From: a virus
Strand: one strand, 5' to 3'
Length of the DNA: 40,698 bases
Virus record (IMG/VR): IMGVR_UViG_3300009506_000091
Span: 1 to 40,698 of that record
Part shown: piece by piece, positions 23,474 to 40,698 of the stretch
How positions within the stretch are numbered: position 1 is the first letter of the stretch
Layout: every line of letters begins with the position of its first letter
Translations under genes and position numbers: made by a program
The notes under the pieces: generated by a model
Told to the model about the DNA's origin: nothing
The model's database searches: none
What the model saw: only the letters and a program-made list of their open reading frames with translations

Positions 23474-23924
23474 TATTTTTTACATCTAAGAAATACCGTA
23501 TATCATTCCATACAGCTAATTCCGCTACTAGATTTATTCTATTAATGCCATCTTCTTTTAGAAATTGACAATTATGTTTTATAGGATTACTAATCCCTGT
23601 TACTTTTATTCTATCAGGATAAGCAATTTCTATTAATCTATATTCTCTGAAAAAAGTGACAGCCTTGTTACATAGATAAAAAATGCCTTTAATTTTATCA
23701 ATGATGAATACAGTATGACTGCGCTTAATTTGCACTTTGAATAGATCTTCAATACAAGTTATCACTGTCCCTGTTAACGGACGTTGAGACTCATAAAGTT
23801 TATTTGCTTGAATTAGGGTTCCATTTAATAAAATCTTATTAATAGAAATCTCTTCTAATCTACCATTTGTAGATATTAAATAACAAGGAAAATTTAAATC
23901 ATAGGGATTTTGTAATTCTATCAT
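23442..23924 (-). CDS. Unknown 160-aa protein between polymerase and helicase
   Basis: Start ATG 23924 overlaps the polymerase stop (GTATGATAG); an earlier in-frame TTG lies within the polymerase gene. The protein alternates hydrophobic and charged residues (KILLNGTLIQANKLYE, FKVQIKRSHTVFIIDKIKG), suggesting a beta-rich fold. It overlaps the helicase start by 32 nt. No family recognised. Confidence 0.68.
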   Translation of the reverse strand: MIELQNPYDLNFPCYLISTNGRLEEISINKILLNGTLIQANKLYESQRPLTGTVITCIEDLFKVQIKRSHTVFIIDKIKGIFYLCNKAVTFFREYRLIEIAYPDRIKVTGISNPIKHNCQFLKEDGINRINLVAELAVWNDIRYFLDVKNNEHRTKHYKI

Positions 23925-24745
23925 ACAAAAGCCCAATTAGCTCCTATTTCAAAATCAACTGGTACTACTGATTTTACTTCATTAGGTACAAAATATCTGT
24001 GACGTTGCAAACACTCTTTTAGACCTTCTCTATACTCACTTAGTACACTTTTATGAACTTCAGATGCCAGCGAATCATGTACAATAGTAAATGGACGTAC
24101 TAAATCTTGTTTAATCCAATTATTAGCAATAATATATTCTTTCATAAAATCAGTAAATCCCATAAGCATGATATCTGATGCTGTTCCTTGGAATAAAGTA
24201 TTAATACCAGAACGAATAGCATGTTCTGCTACACCACTATTATTTGAAAATACATCAGGTATATTTCTTATACGACCTTGAGCATATAATAGTTTACCTG
24301 TTCTACGTAATGTACTTTCTTGTTCTTCCATCCAGTCTTTTAAAACAGATGCTTTATTAAAGTAATCAACAATCATTTGCTCACATTCTTTTAATGATAC
24401 TTTAACGCCTAAAGCTGAGATTTCTTTCCACAAGCGGAAAGCAGTAGCACCATATAAAATACCAAATGTGATAGTTTTTGAAGCTTGTCTTTCCTCTTTA
24501 TATTTATGTTCAATCTCTTCAACAGGACAATTTAAATTAAATACACCTTTAGCAATATAGCTATGAAAGTTAAGTTTAGATTCAAAAGCTGACATTAAGA
24601 ACGGATCTAATGATAAAGCCATAGCCATCCATACTTCGGCAGTACCTAAGTCAGCATTAACAATTACATAATCATCTCTAGCTTTAAAAAGTTTTTTAAC
24701 AGTTTTATCTTTTCGCGGAACATTCTGAAAATTAAACTTTGCCAT
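23921..24745 (-). CDS. DNA polymerase I, C-terminal palm/fingers fragment (split polA)
   Basis: 274 aa that begin MAKFNFQNVPR, i.e. exactly at the conserved NLQNIPR of family A polymerases. Motif A is VNADLGTAEVWM (Asp metal ligand), motif B RQASKTITFGILYGA (the O-helix; the position equal to E. coli F762 is Phe), motif C IVHDSLASEV (HDS, as in some T5-like enzymes). It supplies the polymerase active site, but the exonuclease, thumb and start of the palm are encoded by a separate gene 294 bp upstream. The gene begins in a TAATG overlap with a 14-codon ORF. The two fragments must assemble to give a complete enzyme. Confidence 0.92.
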   Translation of the reverse strand: MAKFNFQNVPRKDKTVKKLFKARDDYVIVNADLGTAEVWMAMALSLDPFLMSAFESKLNFHSYIAKGVFNLNCPVEEIEHKYKEERQASKTITFGILYGATAFRLWKEISALGVKVSLKECEQMIVDYFNKASVLKDWMEEQESTLRRTGKLLYAQGRIRNIPDVFSNNSGVAEHAIRSGINTLFQGTASDIMLMGFTDFMKEYIIANNWIKQDLVRPFTIVHDSLASEVHKSVLSEYREGLKECLQRHRYFVPNEVKSVVPVDFEIGANWAFV

Positions 24746-24789
24746 TATTTAATACGACCTCTAGTACCACGTTTTAAATTCTTAGCCAT
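24745..24789 (-). CDS. 14-codon basic micro-ORF in the split-polymerase cassette
   Basis: ATG at 24789 to TAA at 24745 encodes MAKNLKRGTRGRIK. It lies between the stop of the 83-aa gene and the polymerase C-fragment, whose ATG overlaps its stop. It may be a leader for translational coupling rather than a functional peptide. The N-terminal MAK is also that of the following protein. Confidence 0.35.
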   Translation of the reverse strand: MAKNLKRGTRGRIK

Positions 24790-24790
24790 T

Positions 24791-25042
24791 TTATTCAATG
24801 TCATCATCAAACCCTACTACTTTTAACTTAATACCGTAAATAATCATATCATGAATATAACTTAGATCATTATTAGCAATAGCTTCACTAATTCCTATAC
24901 CTTGTTTACGATTAAATGTTGCTTCTTCTGACAATTCACTCATTAAACGCCTAGCTGCACTTTCTGCTAACATAAAGGGTTCATCTTTAAATGTTTCTTG
25001 TATATCATCTCGTTGTAATATTTCTAATATACTAGTACTCAT
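24791..25042 (-). CDS. 83-aa protein inserted between the polymerase halves
   Basis: Start ATG 25042 has GAGGAG 5 nt upstream and overlaps the polymerase N-fragment stop (ATGA). The sequence is acidic and helical: SILEILQRDDIQETF, AESAARRLMSELSEEA, and a C-terminus FDDDIE like an SSB-type acidic tail. It has no LAGLIDADG, GIY-YIG or HNH motif, so it is not a recognisable homing endonuclease. It could help join the two polymerase subunits, which is inference from position only. Confidence 0.7.
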   Translation of the reverse strand: MSTSILEILQRDDIQETFKDEPFMLAESAARRLMSELSEEATFNRKQGIGISEAIANNDLSYIHDMIIYGIKLKVVGFDDDIE

Positions 25043-26526
25043 TCTTTCTCCTCTGATGAACTTAATCTTCCTGATTCTGCTACAGTTAGATTAAAGTTGC
25101 CTCTCATTCTTCCATTAGCTTTAATTCCTAATATAATATTAGAAACATAGGTTCCATACATTTTTGTAGCAGCACGTAATTGCAAAATTAACTTAGGCAT
25201 ATCATGTAATTTAGCTAGAGCATTTAAGGCTGTTGCATCAGTTGTGTTATTTCCTGTTGCTGTTTTTCCTTGAGTTGGTAATCCTAATTTATCATATAGT
25301 AATTTGCCAATTTGTTGGTATGAGTTGGGATTAAATTCTTGTTTTTGCTCATGTTCTAATCTATGAATTGCATCAAATTTATACATTTCTTTTTTAATAT
25401 CTGCAATTTCTTCTTGATATAGTTCTGCTAATTCTGTTAAATATTCATTATCAATAGGAGCACCAGATAATTCCATATGCATCAATGAGTCTACAGCTGG
25501 AAGCATTATCTCCAAATAACATTTTCTTGTAATGGGATCAGCGTCTTTAAAAGCAGGACGTCCCATATTATGCATTAATTGTAATGTGGCATCACTGTCA
25601 CTACATGCATACGGAACAAGAATTTCTAAAGGAATCATATCAAATGTAAAATCTGCTTTTTTAATTTTTGCTTGTCTACAAAATTTAGTAATATAGTCAT
25701 CTTGTGCTTTAGAATAGTCACCAAGATTTGTATATTTCATAGCTAGAAGTTTTAGACTATGGGTTCCTTTTGTTTGATCTACAAAAAGATAATGCATAAT
25801 CATAGTACAATGAAAATTAGGAATTTCTATCCCCAATTTATGAAACATCCATTTTTTATCAAATTTAGCATTATGCATTATAACAGTTACAGATTTAAGT
25901 AATTCTGCAAGTTCATTTCTACATTTCTTCATAATTTTAAATGGAATAAACCATCCATTATTTAATTTAGAAGATATAGTACAACCTATTATGTCACCTA
26001 CATATGGGTCAAGATCAGTAGTTTCAGTATCAAAAGAAATCGCTTTTTCACTTGCTAAATCCCTGAATAACCTTATTGCAGACTCAGAATTATCTATAAA
26101 CTTATAATCTGTTACTATTTCAGCCTCTTCTGTAGAGCCGTTATCCCATGCTTGTTTTATCACATCGAAACTATGTTTAACTGCTGGTTCTTCAGCTGGA
26201 TTAAGATATACAATATTAGGACTTTTAATTGGAATAGATGGCATTGGGTCAGTTAATAACTGAGCATGATATTTAGTAATACCACCTTTATGTTTAATTA
26301 CTTTTTTAAAAGGTTCTGCACCGATAGGAACTATAAATAAATACTTAGAAATTAAACCTTTAATATCTAATGTAATATCTTTAACCAAAACCTTTTTTAA
26401 ACTAGGATTATCTGTTAAATATAATATATCATAGTTAATAGAAGGATGAACCCATTGTTGTAGCATTCGTTCATCTTTCTTTTCATTTTTTGGAATATCA
26501 AAGATAAAAGCTATTTTTTTAGTCAT
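25039..26526 (-). CDS. DNA polymerase I, N-terminal exonuclease/thumb fragment (split polA)
   Basis: 495 aa. The first 130 residues are of unknown type. The 3'-5' proofreading domain follows: Exo I SFDTETTDLDP, Exo II MHNAKFDKKW, Exo III YACSDSDATL. Then comes a thumb-like helical part with ATKMYGTYVSNI and finally NLTVAESGRLSSSEEKE before the stop. TGRLSS is the conserved element just before the PNLQNIP element, so the gene ends precisely there and the next element is on the C-fragment. The last residues EEKE come from a sequence that doubles as the Shine-Dalgarno of the next gene. No 5'-3' exonuclease domain is present; the separate FEN supplies it. Confidence 0.9.
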   Translation of the reverse strand: MTKKIAFIFDIPKNEKKDERMLQQWVHPSINYDILYLTDNPSLKKVLVKDITLDIKGLISKYLFIVPIGAEPFKKVIKHKGGITKYHAQLLTDPMPSIPIKSPNIVYLNPAEEPAVKHSFDVIKQAWDNGSTEEAEIVTDYKFIDNSESAIRLFRDLASEKAISFDTETTDLDPYVGDIIGCTISSKLNNGWFIPFKIMKKCRNELAELLKSVTVIMHNAKFDKKWMFHKLGIEIPNFHCTMIMHYLFVDQTKGTHSLKLLAMKYTNLGDYSKAQDDYITKFCRQAKIKKADFTFDMIPLEILVPYACSDSDATLQLMHNMGRPAFKDADPITRKCYLEIMLPAVDSLMHMELSGAPIDNEYLTELAELYQEEIADIKKEMYKFDAIHRLEHEQKQEFNPNSYQQIGKLLYDKLGLPTQGKTATGNNTTDATALNALAKLHDMPKLILQLRAATKMYGTYVSNIILGIKANGRMRGNFNLTVAESGRLSSSEEKE

Positions 26527-35924: not shown

Positions 35925-35953
35925 TTGACTTATTGTCTAATTTATGCTAAACT
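35925..35953 (+). promoter_or_regulatory. Sigma70-like promoter upstream of the 59-aa gene and tmRNA
   Basis: TTGACT (35925-35930), 17-bp spacer ending ATGC, TAAACT (35948-35953). The same transcript would run through the 59-aa gene into the tmRNA. Confidence 0.75.
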
Positions 35954-35995: not shown

Positions 35996-36175
35996 TTGGG
36001 TGATAGATTTTATCAGCAACAAAAAGATTACAAACCTAAACGGGTTTTGAAAAAAGATATTATTCCAGAAATTGAAGCAGCATTAGAGTGCGAAATTCAA
36101 GGTTTGGATAAATGTACTGTAGCAACGCTTGAAACTCTCGCGCGCGCAGTATGTAATAAATTGTCAGGTAGATAA
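35996..36175 (+). CDS. 59-aa conserved small phage protein (TTG start)
   Basis: TTG 35996 with AGGAG 7 nt upstream. The sequence begins MGDRFYQQQKDYKPKRVLKK and continues with IIPEIEAALECEI and GLDKCTVATLETLARAV. The pattern DRFYxQ ... GLDKxTxxTLExL is one I recall from small proteins of marine T4-like and other phages, always of unknown role. The stop codon lies directly before the acceptor half of the tmRNA, so the mRNA and the RNA gene share one transcript. Confidence 0.8.
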   Translation: MGDRFYQQQKDYKPKRVLKKDIIPEIEAALECEIQGLDKCTVATLETLARAVCNKLSGR

Positions 36176-36574
36176 CTAAAGAAAGTTATACAGGACTAGG
36201 GTTCGACTCCCTACATCTCCACCAATTTAAAGAGAAGCCAATCTACGTCTACTCTTATAAGGTGTCCAAGCGGGCGGTATTAAATCACTGGTAGCAATAT
36301 GTGAGCGTCTGTTACGTAACCAACTGCACGGCTTAAATGGTTGATAGATTACCAGCCTAATTAACACACCGGTTAAGCAATGCTCAAATCAGCCGGTCTC
36401 TTTGGGGATGACATGGTTTCGACTGTGAAGCGGATGTTAGAAGGACTGACACTGCCGGCAAGCAGTAAATCTGCCAAATTAAAGTAAACGCAAACGACGA
36501 TGTTGCACTTCCTCTTGCTGCATAAGCATTGAGGATGAGGTTGGCCACTTACCTTATTAACCAAAAGTGGCAAA
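36176..36574 (+). ncRNA. ssrA: Circularly permuted two-piece tmRNA (ssrA), tag ANDDVALPLAA
   Basis: Trans-translation RNA for ribosome rescue. The acceptor piece comes first: T arm TAGGG-TTCGACT-CCCTA (36197-36213), then CATCTCC, A and CCA ending 36224. The coding piece starts at GGGGATG (36404-36410), which pairs fully with CATCTCC (one G-U). GGTTTCGACT gives the D-like loop. Helix P2 pairs CTGT (36423) with ACAG (36190), and TTAG (36437) with CTAA (36176), both separated by 10 nt. PK1: ACTGC/GCAGT and GGCA/TGCC (36451-36475). The resume codon GCA 36490 opens the tag, stop TAA 36523-36525, with the stop in hairpin P5. PK2: GGTT/AACC and GCCACTT/AAGTGGC (36539-36571). Order 3' half before 5' half is the permuted form. 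Confidence 0.93.
36225..36403 (+). other. Intervening segment of the permuted tmRNA precursor
   Basis: 179 nt between the CCA of the acceptor piece and the GGGG of the coding piece, expected to be excised. It contains a 10-bp palindrome GTTACGTAAC (36311-36320), a GGC...TGGT/ACCA...GCC hairpin (36332-36358) and ACCGG/CCGGT (36368-36397) flanking AGCAATGCT. It is longer than usual for permuted tmRNA genes. No ORF or acceptable tRNA was found in it. Confidence 0.6.
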
Positions 36575-36579
36575 CTTTT

Positions 36580-36688
36580 TATAGTTGTGCGCTATATAAG
36601 ATAATGAATGGTGGAGCGCTGACTACGCAGGTTCGAAGTCTGGGTGTTGTGAACTAGTAGTAGCAATGCTAACCATAATGCAACTATA
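36580..36688 (+). other. Structured RNA-like segment between tmRNA and tRNA-Trp
   Basis: TATAGTTG (36580-36587) and CAACTATA (36681-36688) form an 8-bp closing helix around 93 nt. Inside are GCGC repeats that can pair and a T-loop-like GGTTCGAAGTC (36633-36643). It could be an extra 3' domain of the tmRNA coding piece or a degenerate tRNA. No coding sequence is seen. Confidence 0.4.
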
Positions 36689-36693
36689 AATAT

Positions 36694-36767
36694 GTGGGGT
36701 ACAGCTATGGTGGCGGACAGGTCTCCAAAACCTCGTTGAATAGGTTCGATTCCTATACCCTTCGCCA
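36694..36767 (+). tRNA. tRNA-Trp (CCA), divergent
   Basis: Anticodon loop CTCCAAA gives CCA. The T arm ATAGG-TTCGATT-CCTAT is perfect, and CCA is encoded. The acceptor GTGGGGT/ACCCTTC has one U-U mismatch and a G-U; position 27-43 is C-C and the D arm is poorly formed. It may be a weak or degenerating tRNA. Confidence 0.65.
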
Positions 36768-38614: not shown

Positions 38615-38691
38615 TCCTCAGTAGCTCAACTGGACAGAGCATCAGGTTTCTACCCTGAGCGTTGGGGGTTCGAATCCCTCTTGGGGAACCA
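38615..38691 (+). tRNA. tRNA-Arg (UCU)
   Basis: Acceptor TCCTCAG/TTGGGGA with G-U pairs, D stem GCTC/GAGC, anticodon stem TCAGG/CCTGA, loop TTTCTAC (anticodon TCT), T arm GGGGG-TTCGAAT-CCCTC, encoded CCA. Reads AGA, a frequent Arg codon in this AT-rich genome. Confidence 0.93.
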
Positions 38692-38707
38692 AATTAAGGA
38701 GTTTATT

Positions 38708-38983
38708 TTGGATAAACAAGAATTTTTAAAAGCTATGCAGCCATTACGTCATATTACACAAGTATTTTATGTAGGAAAAATCCAACCTACAGAAGAAACT
38801 AGATTACAGTCTAGGAAATGGCAGGATAGAAGTAAATATCTTGGTAATGGCGAACTAAGACCTGAGCCGGAACTTAGTGAAACTGATAAGGCTAGATTAG
38901 CTCTTATGGGGCAAAATGAGGAGTTAATTACAGGAAATACTCCAGAAGCTGAAGTGGAACAGCACCTCCCTACGAAGGAGTAG
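38708..38983 (+). CDS. 91-aa small protein whose end overlaps tRNA-Arg(ACG)
   Basis: TTG 38708 with AAGGAG 7 nt upstream. MDKQEFLKAMQPLRHITQVF then a charged region with PEPELSETDKARLALMGQNE. The open frame extends upstream through tRNA-Arg(UCU), which is an artefact. The last 14 codons and the stop (38942-38983) lie inside the next tRNA gene, so RNase P cleavage at 38938/38939 would remove the stop codon from its mRNA. Function unknown. Confidence 0.75.
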   Translation: MDKQEFLKAMQPLRHITQVFYVGKIQPTEETRLQSRKWQDRSKYLGNGELRPEPELSETDKARLALMGQNEELITGNTPEAEVEQHLPTKE

Positions 38984-39014
38984 AATATAGGTTCGAATCC
39001 TATCTGGAGTACCA
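38939..39014 (+). tRNA. tRNA-Arg (ACG)
   Basis: Acceptor ACTCCAG/CTGGAGT is a perfect 7-bp helix; D stem GCTG/CAGC; anticodon loop CTACGAA (ACG); T arm ATAGG-TTCGAAT-CCTAT; CCA encoded. The anticodon stem has four good pairs with a mismatch at 27-43. Its 5' half doubles as coding sequence for the preceding gene. Confidence 0.9.
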
Positions 39015-39017
39015 ATT

Positions 39018-39203
39018 ATGAGATTTTCATTTAAGAAAAGATTATTAGAAGGTAGTAGATTTTCAATACAAAACGATTGGAAATGGAATAAAGAACTACA
39101 TCTAATACCAGCTGTATCTATAGACTGTATGGAGGATATTCGTATAGTTCTTAAGATTATAAATCTAAGAATAGATATAACAGTATTATATAGAGTATAT
39201 TAA
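39018..39203 (+). CDS. 61-aa small protein between tRNA-Arg and tRNA-Pro
   Basis: ATG 39018 begins four bases after the tRNA CCA. The only Shine-Dalgarno-like sequence, GGAG, is inside the tRNA 3' acceptor strand. Translation would therefore need the uncut precursor or be leaderless. The protein MRFSFKKRLLEGSRF ... WNKELHLIPAVSIDC ... has a basic N-terminus and beta-like hydrophobic end. Function unknown. Confidence 0.55.
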   Translation: MRFSFKKRLLEGSRFSIQNDWKWNKELHLIPAVSIDCMEDIRIVLKIINLRIDITVLYRVY

Positions 39204-39204
39204 C

Positions 39205-39261
39205 ATGGTTAATAGATTCGTTTTAGAAGAAGAGCTAATAACCAATGGAAAGATAACATAA
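39205..39261 (+). CDS. 18-aa micro-ORF abutting tRNA-Pro
   Basis: ATG 39205 to TAA 39261 encodes MVNRFVLEEELITNGKIT. The stop codon ends exactly one base before tRNA-Pro nucleotide 1. There is no clear Shine-Dalgarno, so it is listed because of the repeated stop/tRNA arrangement. Confidence 0.3.
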   Translation: MVNRFVLEEELITNGKIT

Positions 39262-39337
39262 CGGAGTGTAGCTCAGTTGGCAGAGCTTCCCGTTTGGGGC
39301 GGGAAAGTCGGGAGTTCGAGTCTCTCTACTCCGACCA
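39262..39337 (+). tRNA. tRNA-Pro (UGG)
   Basis: Acceptor CGGAGTG/TACTCCG, D stem GCTC/GAGC, anticodon stem TCCCG/CGGGA with loop TTTGGGG (TGG, G37), T-loop TTCGAGT, discriminator A, CCA encoded. Confidence 0.94.
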
Positions 39338-39359
39338 GTTAAAAATAAAAGGAGTCTTA

Positions 39360-39614
39360 ATGTTCAGAATACATAAACATATTATTGGTGATGGTAAAGT
39401 AAAACTGCCTGTAGATGCAAAGATCTTATCTATACAAATGCAGAATGGCTTTATTACAGCATGGTATGAAACGTGTAATCCTAATATTGTCGAATTTAAA
39501 GAATTTAAAGTTATAGGTACAGGATGGGATATAGAAGACTTTAAAAGAAAATATATTGCCACAGTTAAAGATGGACTATTTGTATGGCATATCTATGAGG
39601 TTTTAGAAAAATGA
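39360..39614 (+). CDS. 84-aa DUF7352-like small phage protein
   Basis: ATG 39360 with AAGGAG 7 nt upstream; the longer frame would run through tRNA-Pro. MFRIHKHIIGDGKVKLPVDA, KILSIQMQNGFITAWYE, FKVIGTGWDI and YIATVKDGLFVWHIYE match a family of short phage proteins with alternating strands that I recall as DUF7352-like. No biochemical role is known. The stop overlaps the next ATG (ATGA). Confidence 0.78.
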   Translation: MFRIHKHIIGDGKVKLPVDAKILSIQMQNGFITAWYETCNPNIVEFKEFKVIGTGWDIEDFKRKYIATVKDGLFVWHIYEVLEK

Positions 39615-39709
39615 ATGAAGATGTAAGTTATTATTGCACATCTAATATGGGTGTGCGTCCGAGTGGAGAAGCGGAGTCTGTCTGTAAAACAGCACGATCT
39701 ATGGTCTAG
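39611..39709 (+). CDS. 32-aa micro-ORF running into tRNA-Tyr
   Basis: ATG 39611 overlaps the stop of the preceding gene; MNEDVSYYCTSNMGVR continues into tRNA-Tyr and stops at TAG 39707-39709 within its variable arm. Coupled translation is possible, but the last 20 codons are tRNA sequence. Low confidence as a functional gene. Confidence 0.35.
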   Translation: MNEDVSYYCTSNMGVRPSGEAESVCKTARSMV

Positions 39710-39735
39710 AGGTTCGAATCCTTACACATCCACCA
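39649..39735 (+). tRNA. tRNA-Tyr (GUA)
   Basis: Class II tRNA: acceptor GGGTGTG/CACATCC (one G-U), anticodon stem CTGT/ACAG with loop CTGTAAA (GTA), a long variable arm, T-loop TTCGAAT, discriminator A and encoded CCA. Confidence 0.93.
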
Positions 39736-39761
39736 GTTTAAATTAAAATAAGGAGATTATT

Positions 39762-39929
39762 TTGGCAACACATTATACAGAGGTTTCAGCAGTAAATAAG
39801 CTAAAAAGAGCTGGAGTTAACTTTAAAAATAAGGTAATTGAAGCTAAGAAATACTCTCTTGGTATCGGTATGTTGGGGGCAGCAGATTATCTTTGTAAAG
39901 TACATAAATATGTACTTGCTTTTAAATAA
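39762..39929 (+). CDS. 55-aa small protein abutting tRNA-Ser (TTG start)
   Basis: TTG 39762 with AAGGAG 7 nt upstream. MATHYTEVSAVNKLKRAGVN then basic residues and LGIGMLGAADYLCKVHKY. TAA 39927-39929 ends exactly at tRNA-Ser nucleotide 1. Function unknown; composition suggests a small basic helical protein. Confidence 0.7.
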   Translation: MATHYTEVSAVNKLKRAGVNFKNKVIEAKKYSLGIGMLGAADYLCKVHKYVLAFK

Positions 39930-40015
39930 GGAAGATTGGCAGAGAGGTAATGCAGCACCCTGCTAAGGTGTACGTCGGAAACGGCGCATAGGTTCGATTC
40001 CTATATCTTCCGCCA
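39930..40015 (+). tRNA. tRNA-Ser (GCU)
   Basis: Class II: acceptor GGAAGAT/ATCTTCC perfect, anticodon loop CTGCTAA (GCT), long variable arm with CGTCGGAAACGGCG, T arm ATAGG-TTCGATT-CCTAT, discriminator G, CCA encoded. Confidence 0.95.
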
Positions 40016-40028
40016 TTAGAGGAATGAA

Positions 40029-40175
40029 ATGAGCAACGAATTTAAAGATTGGGTATTCAATCTTGTACAAGATACCAAAAAATGTTTTAGTTGTGGTACT
40101 AAAGTTGATACTACAGATATGCATAAAGGTAAAACAATAAAATGTGATAAATGTAACTGGACTTTTACATATTAA
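40029..40175 (+). CDS. 48-aa zinc-ribbon small protein abutting tRNA-Cys
   Basis: ATG 40029 with AGAGGA 5 nt upstream. Two CxxC pairs, CFSCG near residue 19 and CDKCN near 39, predict a zinc ribbon. TAA 40173-40175 ends exactly at tRNA-Cys nucleotide 1. Function unknown. Confidence 0.72.
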   Translation: MSNEFKDWVFNLVQDTKKCFSCGTKVDTTDMHKGKTIKCDKCNWTFTY

Positions 40176-40250
40176 GCATGTGTGCCAGAACGGTGATGGC
40201 TACGTTTGCAAAACATTTGTATATCGGTTCGAGTCCGATCACATGCTCCA
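40176..40250 (+). tRNA. tRNA-Cys (GCA)
   Basis: Acceptor GCATGTG/CACATGC perfect, D stem GCC/GGC, anticodon loop TTGCAAA (GCA), T arm ATCGG-TTCGAGT-CCGAT, discriminator T (U73, the Cys identity base), CCA encoded. The anticodon stem has a mismatch. Confidence 0.92.
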
Positions 40251-40256
40251 AGTTAA

Positions 40257-40348
40257 GGATAGTGAAGCAGTTGCAGTGGAGCGGCGACCAGCTTTGAACA
40301 CTGGGTTTCGTTAAATCGGATGGGGTTCGAGTCCTCCGCTATCCGCCA
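40257..40348 (+). tRNA. tRNA-Ser (UGA)
   Basis: Class II, 92 nt: acceptor GGATAGT/GCTATCC, anticodon stem CCAG/CTGG around TTTGAAC (TGA), long variable arm, T-loop TTCGAGT, discriminator G, CCA encoded. Starts 6 nt after tRNA-Cys. Confidence 0.9.
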
Positions 40349-40379
40349 GTTCTAGAGAAGCTTATGGAGAATTTAATAA

Positions 40380-40559
40380 ATGATAAAGTCAAAAGAAGTA
40401 GCAGCTAAAGCAACATATATGCTTGATTACATAGATAGAGAATTTCCAGAACTTTCTGATAATGACAAAATTGCAATTCTTAGAAGTGCAGCTATGTGTA
40501 TAGAATTTAATATGGCTGCTACTATGATGGCTGCTACAGCTAAGAAGTTATTAAAATGA
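40380..40559 (+). CDS. 59-aa small helical protein
   Basis: ATG 40380 with GGAGA 8 nt upstream. MIKSKEVAAKATYMLDYIDR then a Met/Ala-rich second half (NMAATMMAATAKKLL). Likely two or three helices. Stop overlaps the next ATG (ATGA). Function unknown. Confidence 0.65.
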   Translation: MIKSKEVAAKATYMLDYIDREFPELSDNDKIAILRSAAMCIEFNMAATMMAATAKKLLK

Positions 40560-40678
40560 CACCTACATTTGTTTTCTTTCTTAGCTTTAGTTTTTCTAGT
40601 AAGTTATTTTGTATATTTTTATATTTTTTATTACGAAATAAACCGAAGAATAGCTCAGTTGGTAGAGCGGAAGATTGA
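40556..40678 (+). CDS. 40-aa hydrophobic micro-ORF running into tRNA-Phe
   Basis: ATG 40556 overlaps the preceding stop. MTPTFVFFLSFSFSSKLFCI and following residues form one membrane-spanning stretch, then the frame enters tRNA-Phe and stops at TGA 40676-40678 in its anticodon arm. Translational coupling is plausible; the last 12 codons are tRNA sequence. Confidence 0.45.
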   Translation: MTPTFVFFLSFSFSSKLFCIFLYFLLRNKPKNSSVGRAED

Positions 40679-40698
40679 AGCTCTTCGCGTCATAGGTT
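40644..40698 (+). tRNA. tRNA-Phe (GAA), cut by window end
   Basis: CGAAGAA acceptor 5' strand, TAGCTCAGTTGGTAGAGC D arm, anticodon stem GAAGA/TCTTC with loop TTGAAGC (GAA). The T arm begins with AGGTT at the window edge, so the 3' end lies outside. Confidence 0.88.

Follow-up and report, generated by a model that had tools for sequence, protein, structure and literature searches.

A predicted two-piece tmRNA in a T5-like, tRNA-rich phage, and related phage loci with protein genes between the tmRNA halves

tmRNA rescues stalled ribosomes and tags the incomplete protein for degradation. A sequence-only reading of the viral DNA analysed here (the window: a linear IMG/VR virus record of 40,698 bases, probably a fragment, G+C 31.5%) placed a phage-encoded, circularly permuted tmRNA at 36176-36574, which raises the question of whether such a gene is real and intact and what it would do for the phage.

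The permuted tmRNA model RF04321 (tmRNA_permuted, Rfam) matched 36163-36525 over its full length with 104.3 bits (E = 1.9e-19; cut-off 47 bits), and ARAGORN called a permuted tmRNA in the window at 36132-36616 with the tag ANDDVALPLAA. ARAGORN made no tmRNA call in any of 100 first-order Markov sequences of the window's length and dinucleotide composition. Rfam/Infernal-type and permuted ARAGORN searches had been proposed as checks on the sequence-only reading, and the agreement of ARAGORN with RF04321, together with the phage gene content, bears out a phage-encoded permuted tmRNA. The window tmRNA is real and looks intact, and its parts are as follows.

36163-36224, +, acceptor piece (3' tRNA-like half): P2 3' strands, T arm, 3' acceptor strand, discriminator A and encoded CCA (RF04321 alignment, ARAGORN 3' tRNA domain, pair check)
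36197-36213, +, T arm UAGGG-UUCGACU-CCCUA, stem 5/5 (base-by-base pair check)
36214-36220, +, 3' acceptor strand CAUCUCC, U70 opposite G3 (pair check)
36225-36403, +, intervening spacer of 179 nt, expected to be removed (fold, ORF and tRNA scans)
36404-36574, +, coding piece (5' half), 3' end uncertain at about 36571-36580 (RF04321 to 36525; P5 and PK2 by pair check)
36404-36410, +, 5' acceptor strand GGGGAUG, pairing 7/7 with 36214-36220 (pair check)
36423-36450, +, P2 5' strands, all three blocks (pair check)
36423-36426 / 36190-36193, +, P2a, CUGU/ACAG (pair check)
36437-36440 / 36176-36179, +, P2b, UUAG/CUAA (pair check)
36446-36450 / 36163-36167, +, P2c, CUGAC/GUCAG (pair check)
36452-36475, +, PK1 pseudoknot, two 4-bp stems CUGC/GCAG and GGCA/UGCC (pair check)
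36490-36525, +, tag reading frame GCA...TAA = ANDDVALPLAA, resume codon GCA at 36490 (ARAGORN)
36511-36534, +, P5 helix CCUC/GAGG (4 pairs), tag stop UAA in the loop (pair check)
36539-36571, +, PK2 pseudoknot, stems of 4 and 7, GGUU/AACC and GCCACUU/AAGUGGC (pair check)
35925-35953, +, possible sigma-70-type promoter TTGACT-17-TAAACT upstream of a small ORF and the tmRNA (pattern match)

The 3' half lies upstream of the 5' half, and 36214-36224, which ends in CCA, shares one acceptor stem with 36404-36410. The third acceptor pair is G-U, and G3-U70 is the alanine identity pair. The tag frame runs from its resume codon to a stop, and every stem of P2, PK1, P5 and PK2 pairs; the last three were checked by hand because RF04321 has base pairs in the tRNA domain only and does not extend past the tag stop. 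Base-by-base pairing confirmed the seven acceptor pairs, PK1, the tag frame with its stop in P5, and PK2, all of which the sequence-only reading had described, and its CCA end at 36224, GGGGATG start at 36404 and tag were correct. It had also recognized P2, where all blocks do pair, but it counted two segments instead of three, and the element starts at about 36163 rather than at 36176.

The spacer's fold is no stronger than that of shuffled sequences (z = +0.79); the spacer holds no ORF beyond chance (longest ATG frame 24 nt), contains no tRNA called by ARAGORN and is non-coding. Matches to the sigma-70-type promoter pattern numbered 6 against 3.3 +/- 2.1 in shuffles, which is close to chance. 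A 59-aa ORF (35996-36175, +, TTG start, TAGGAG upstream) without a significant family match ends within the P2 region of the acceptor piece and therefore overlaps the tmRNA gene. Directly behind PK2 lies a perfect 10-bp inverted repeat (36578-36587 / 36681-36690, TTTATAGTTG/CAACTATAAA) enclosing about 93 nt; the fold z of this region is -0.94.

Phage genes surround the tmRNA: tape measure, SbcC/SbcD, DnaB-type helicase, primase, PolA-type polymerase, NAD-dependent ligase, ribonucleotide reductase, a D5-like regulator and virion structural proteins. Of these, the polymerase comes closest to those of T5-like phages of enteric bacteria, at 33-34% identity, so that no close relative of the window phage is known, and the flanking genes had no close relatives in the viral contig collection searched. 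The PolA-type gene (23921-26526, -) is divided between two ORFs that adjoin at position 979 of the phrog_17 profile, with an 83-aa ORF (24791-25042) between them; no group I intron match was found at the Rfam gathering threshold. A tRNA cluster at 38615-40698 comprises five complete genes (ARAGORN, Rfam) and a sixth cut by the window end (40644-40698, +, Rfam), and thus continues past the window. A further tRNA-Trp(CCA)-like gene at 36694-36767 (+) was missed by ARAGORN and scored 32 bits with the Rfam tRNA-Sec model (cut-off 47); a tRNA-Sec at 36693-36764 was rejected, as the anticodon reads CCA and the gene looks like tRNA-Trp. No smpB was found in this 40.7-kb fragment, and the RNA would have to depend on host SmpB unless the missing part of the genome carries smpB. 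An exact resume-region pattern was also used to look for the host in genome contigs, and gave one match that was judged to be chance.

From its sequence, complete pair set, tag frame and phage context, the locus is very probably a phage-borne ssrA gene in circularly permuted form that is processed to a working two-piece tmRNA. We read it as a predicted working tmRNA of a T5-like, tRNA-rich phage that would borrow host SmpB. Its transcription, cleavage, charging and tagging are all predicted. One precursor would be transcribed and the 179-nt spacer excised, with RNase P probably generating the 5' end at 36404 and tRNA 3'-end processing the CCA end at 36224. Acceptor stem and P2 pairing would join the acceptor piece (about 62 nt) to the coding piece (about 171 nt), and the host alanyl-tRNA synthetase may charge the product via G3-U70. 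With host SmpB and EF-Tu, it would enter ribosomes stalled on broken mRNAs and add (A)ANDDVALPLAA, and the LAA end would route the tagged protein to ClpXP-type proteases. The phage would probably gain by keeping ribosomes in use while host mRNA is destroyed during infection, which would fit its own tRNA set.

Mycobacteriophage DS6A carries a tmRNA reduced to the tRNA domain, for which a decoy or inhibitor role has been proposed, and a rival reading is that the window RNA likewise binds SmpB or the ribosome and blocks host trans-translation. Phage tmRNA domains without a tag are known, and a molecule of this type acts as a tmRNA inhibitor in E. coli (PMC4131195; PMC11915505), but the window copy retains PK1, the resume codon, a full LAA tag with its stop, P5 and PK2, none of which a decoy would need, and we consider this role improbable.

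Canonical ssrA tags begin with AND and end with LAA, and since the window tag does both, normal proteolysis of tagged proteins is the default expectation. The sequence-only reading had suggested a different route for tagged proteins, which the usual ends do not indicate; phage tags vary widely between them. Selective tagging, in which a phage tmRNA with a tag unlike the host's has host proteins degraded or diverted to some other end, would find a basis in the unusual middle of the tag, DDVALP, and a degenerate-pattern scan found the same tag in no other IMG/VR contig. Its ends are nonetheless canonical, tags differ freely among phages and no sequence feature confers selectivity for host proteins, which leaves this idea, also raised for phage tmRNA in PMC9004378, little probability.

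The alpha_tmRNA model (RF01849) scored the window at 38.4 bits, below its cut-off of 50, so that alphaproteobacterial descent, the frame of the sequence-only reading, appears unsupported by model score. The betaproteobacterial (RF01850) and cyanobacterial (RF01851) models gave no window match at gathering; RF01850 does match several other phage loci, unlike the window. No close relative of the window tmRNA was found; at the DNA level, the best matches in the phage collection were confined to the T-arm/acceptor segment that tRNAs and tmRNAs conserve. This weak fit to the clade models, and the fact that no relatives were found to demonstrate selection, might speak for a functionless, decaying passenger acquired from a host, but all elements are unbroken despite the distance from known relatives, and a decaying copy this divergent should have lost pairs or the tag frame. 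A passenger is highly improbable.

Across phage tmRNAs, acceptor stems vary on both strands and still pair (GGGGAUG/CAUCUCC vs GGGGGUG/CACCUCC), and T stems are likewise compensated (UAGGG/CCCUA, AGGGG/CCCCU, GUGGG/CCCAC, GCGAG/CUCGC). These compensatory differences suggest that phage tmRNAs of the window's kind are kept functional; the window copy on its own can demonstrate only intactness.

The window tmRNA is not new in kind, as dozens of aquatic phages are already known carriers. A permuted phage tmRNA was reported in 2022 for Melnitz, together with a survey that found tmRNA in 402 of 18,146 phage genomes and 53 two-piece tmRNA structures, 50 of them in marine or aquatic phages (PMC9004378); a 2025 database lists 79 phage tmRNAs (PMC11915505). 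Our IMG/VR scans gave about 40 more loci. They added 28 with short spacers, all confirmed by ARAGORN or RF04321, eight with spacers of 158-188 nt, two found via the conserved 5' end, and the nuclease-bearing group described below. With the 53 published cases and these 28, the rarity claimed for a permuted phage copy was overstated.

The window shares with the permuted tmRNAs of RF04321 the order of the halves, the acceptor and T-arm pairs, the resume region and the tag, and differs in its long spacer and phage location. Other aquatic phages resemble it in having a two-piece tmRNA with a long spacer (PMC9004378). Melnitz, a Methylophilales phage (MZ577097.1), also has a permuted tmRNA with a long spacer (142 nt) and no smpB found in its record; however, it fits alpha_tmRNA (106.7 bits) where the window does not, carries the tag ANDNYVPVDYALAA, and has a glutamine riboswitch downstream, which Rfam did not find in the window. 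The IMG/VR phage tmRNA L136/L139/L140 has the same GGGGATG/CATCTCC acceptor, a 171-nt spacer without a filling ORF and a dense tRNA cluster, but differs in its tag (ANDNTFAQTRLVA) and one T-stem mismatch, and shows little sequence likeness beyond conserved positions. Mycobacteriophages Bxz1 and Wildcat and Bacillus phage G also carry tmRNA, which PMC4131195 does not describe as permuted two-piece.

The most promising lead comes from outside the window, from several marine phages that have a complete protein gene between the tmRNA halves. Most clearly, six loci (L039-L043 and L050, at least three distinct sequences; e.g. L039 1500-2150) have between the halves an entire gene of 146 codons for a Staphylococcal-nuclease homologue (PF00565, E 2e-12; phrog_452, E 3.2e-35), which begins 12 nt past the CCA and stops 1-2 nt short of the 5' half. 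RF04321 covers these loci whole at 94.9-114.1 bits, and ARAGORN missed the ones on which it was run (L004 and L005, which are the contigs of L039 and L040). Their tags are ANDDVFALAA, ANDEVFALAA and ANDDYFALAA, the T stem changes with compensation (AGGGG/CCCCT vs GTGGG/CCCAC), and the nuclease is under purifying selection (dN 0.088, dS 1.0, L039 vs L050). L044-L047, L049 and L061 have the same nuclease neighbourhood and lack both halves; L048 has it with the coding half only and L051 with the acceptor half only. Recombination within the shared nuclease gene may explain the single halves, the difference counts being no proof of it.

Small ORFs that start about 10-20 nt past the CCA occupy other spacers. 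One of 52 aa nearly fills that of L133/L137 (11 of 2000 shuffles as long), another nearly fills that of the Melnitz locus at 46013-46345 (15 of 2000), and in L138 the ORF extends into the coding piece (2 of 2000) and matches phrog_4098 in part (E 4.4e-11); these spacers were picked from a handful, and the shuffle counts are a guide and not a test. One tRNA gene and one repeat within spacers were noted in the 2025 database paper (PMC11915505), and no mention of a protein gene inside a tmRNA spacer was found in the open-licence literature. Tentatively, and at slightly less than even probability, the spacer of phage permuted tmRNAs is a cargo site: one transcript would yield both halves and the mRNA for a phage protein between them (the nuclease homologue in one marine group, small proteins elsewhere), recombination in the cargo gene could leave single halves, and the window, with its long non-coding spacer, would belong to the long-spacer class as an empty or decayed case.

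No published test of the infection role of full-tag phage tmRNAs was found in the open-licence literature, and the window extends a list that is still short by one intact, divergent two-piece tmRNA from a T5-like phage. The related loci carry more weight than the window copy. Halves that bracket a protein gene, together with the natural one-half variants, would offer a handle on how split RNAs evolve and on how a single transcript accommodates both tmRNA processing and mRNA translation.
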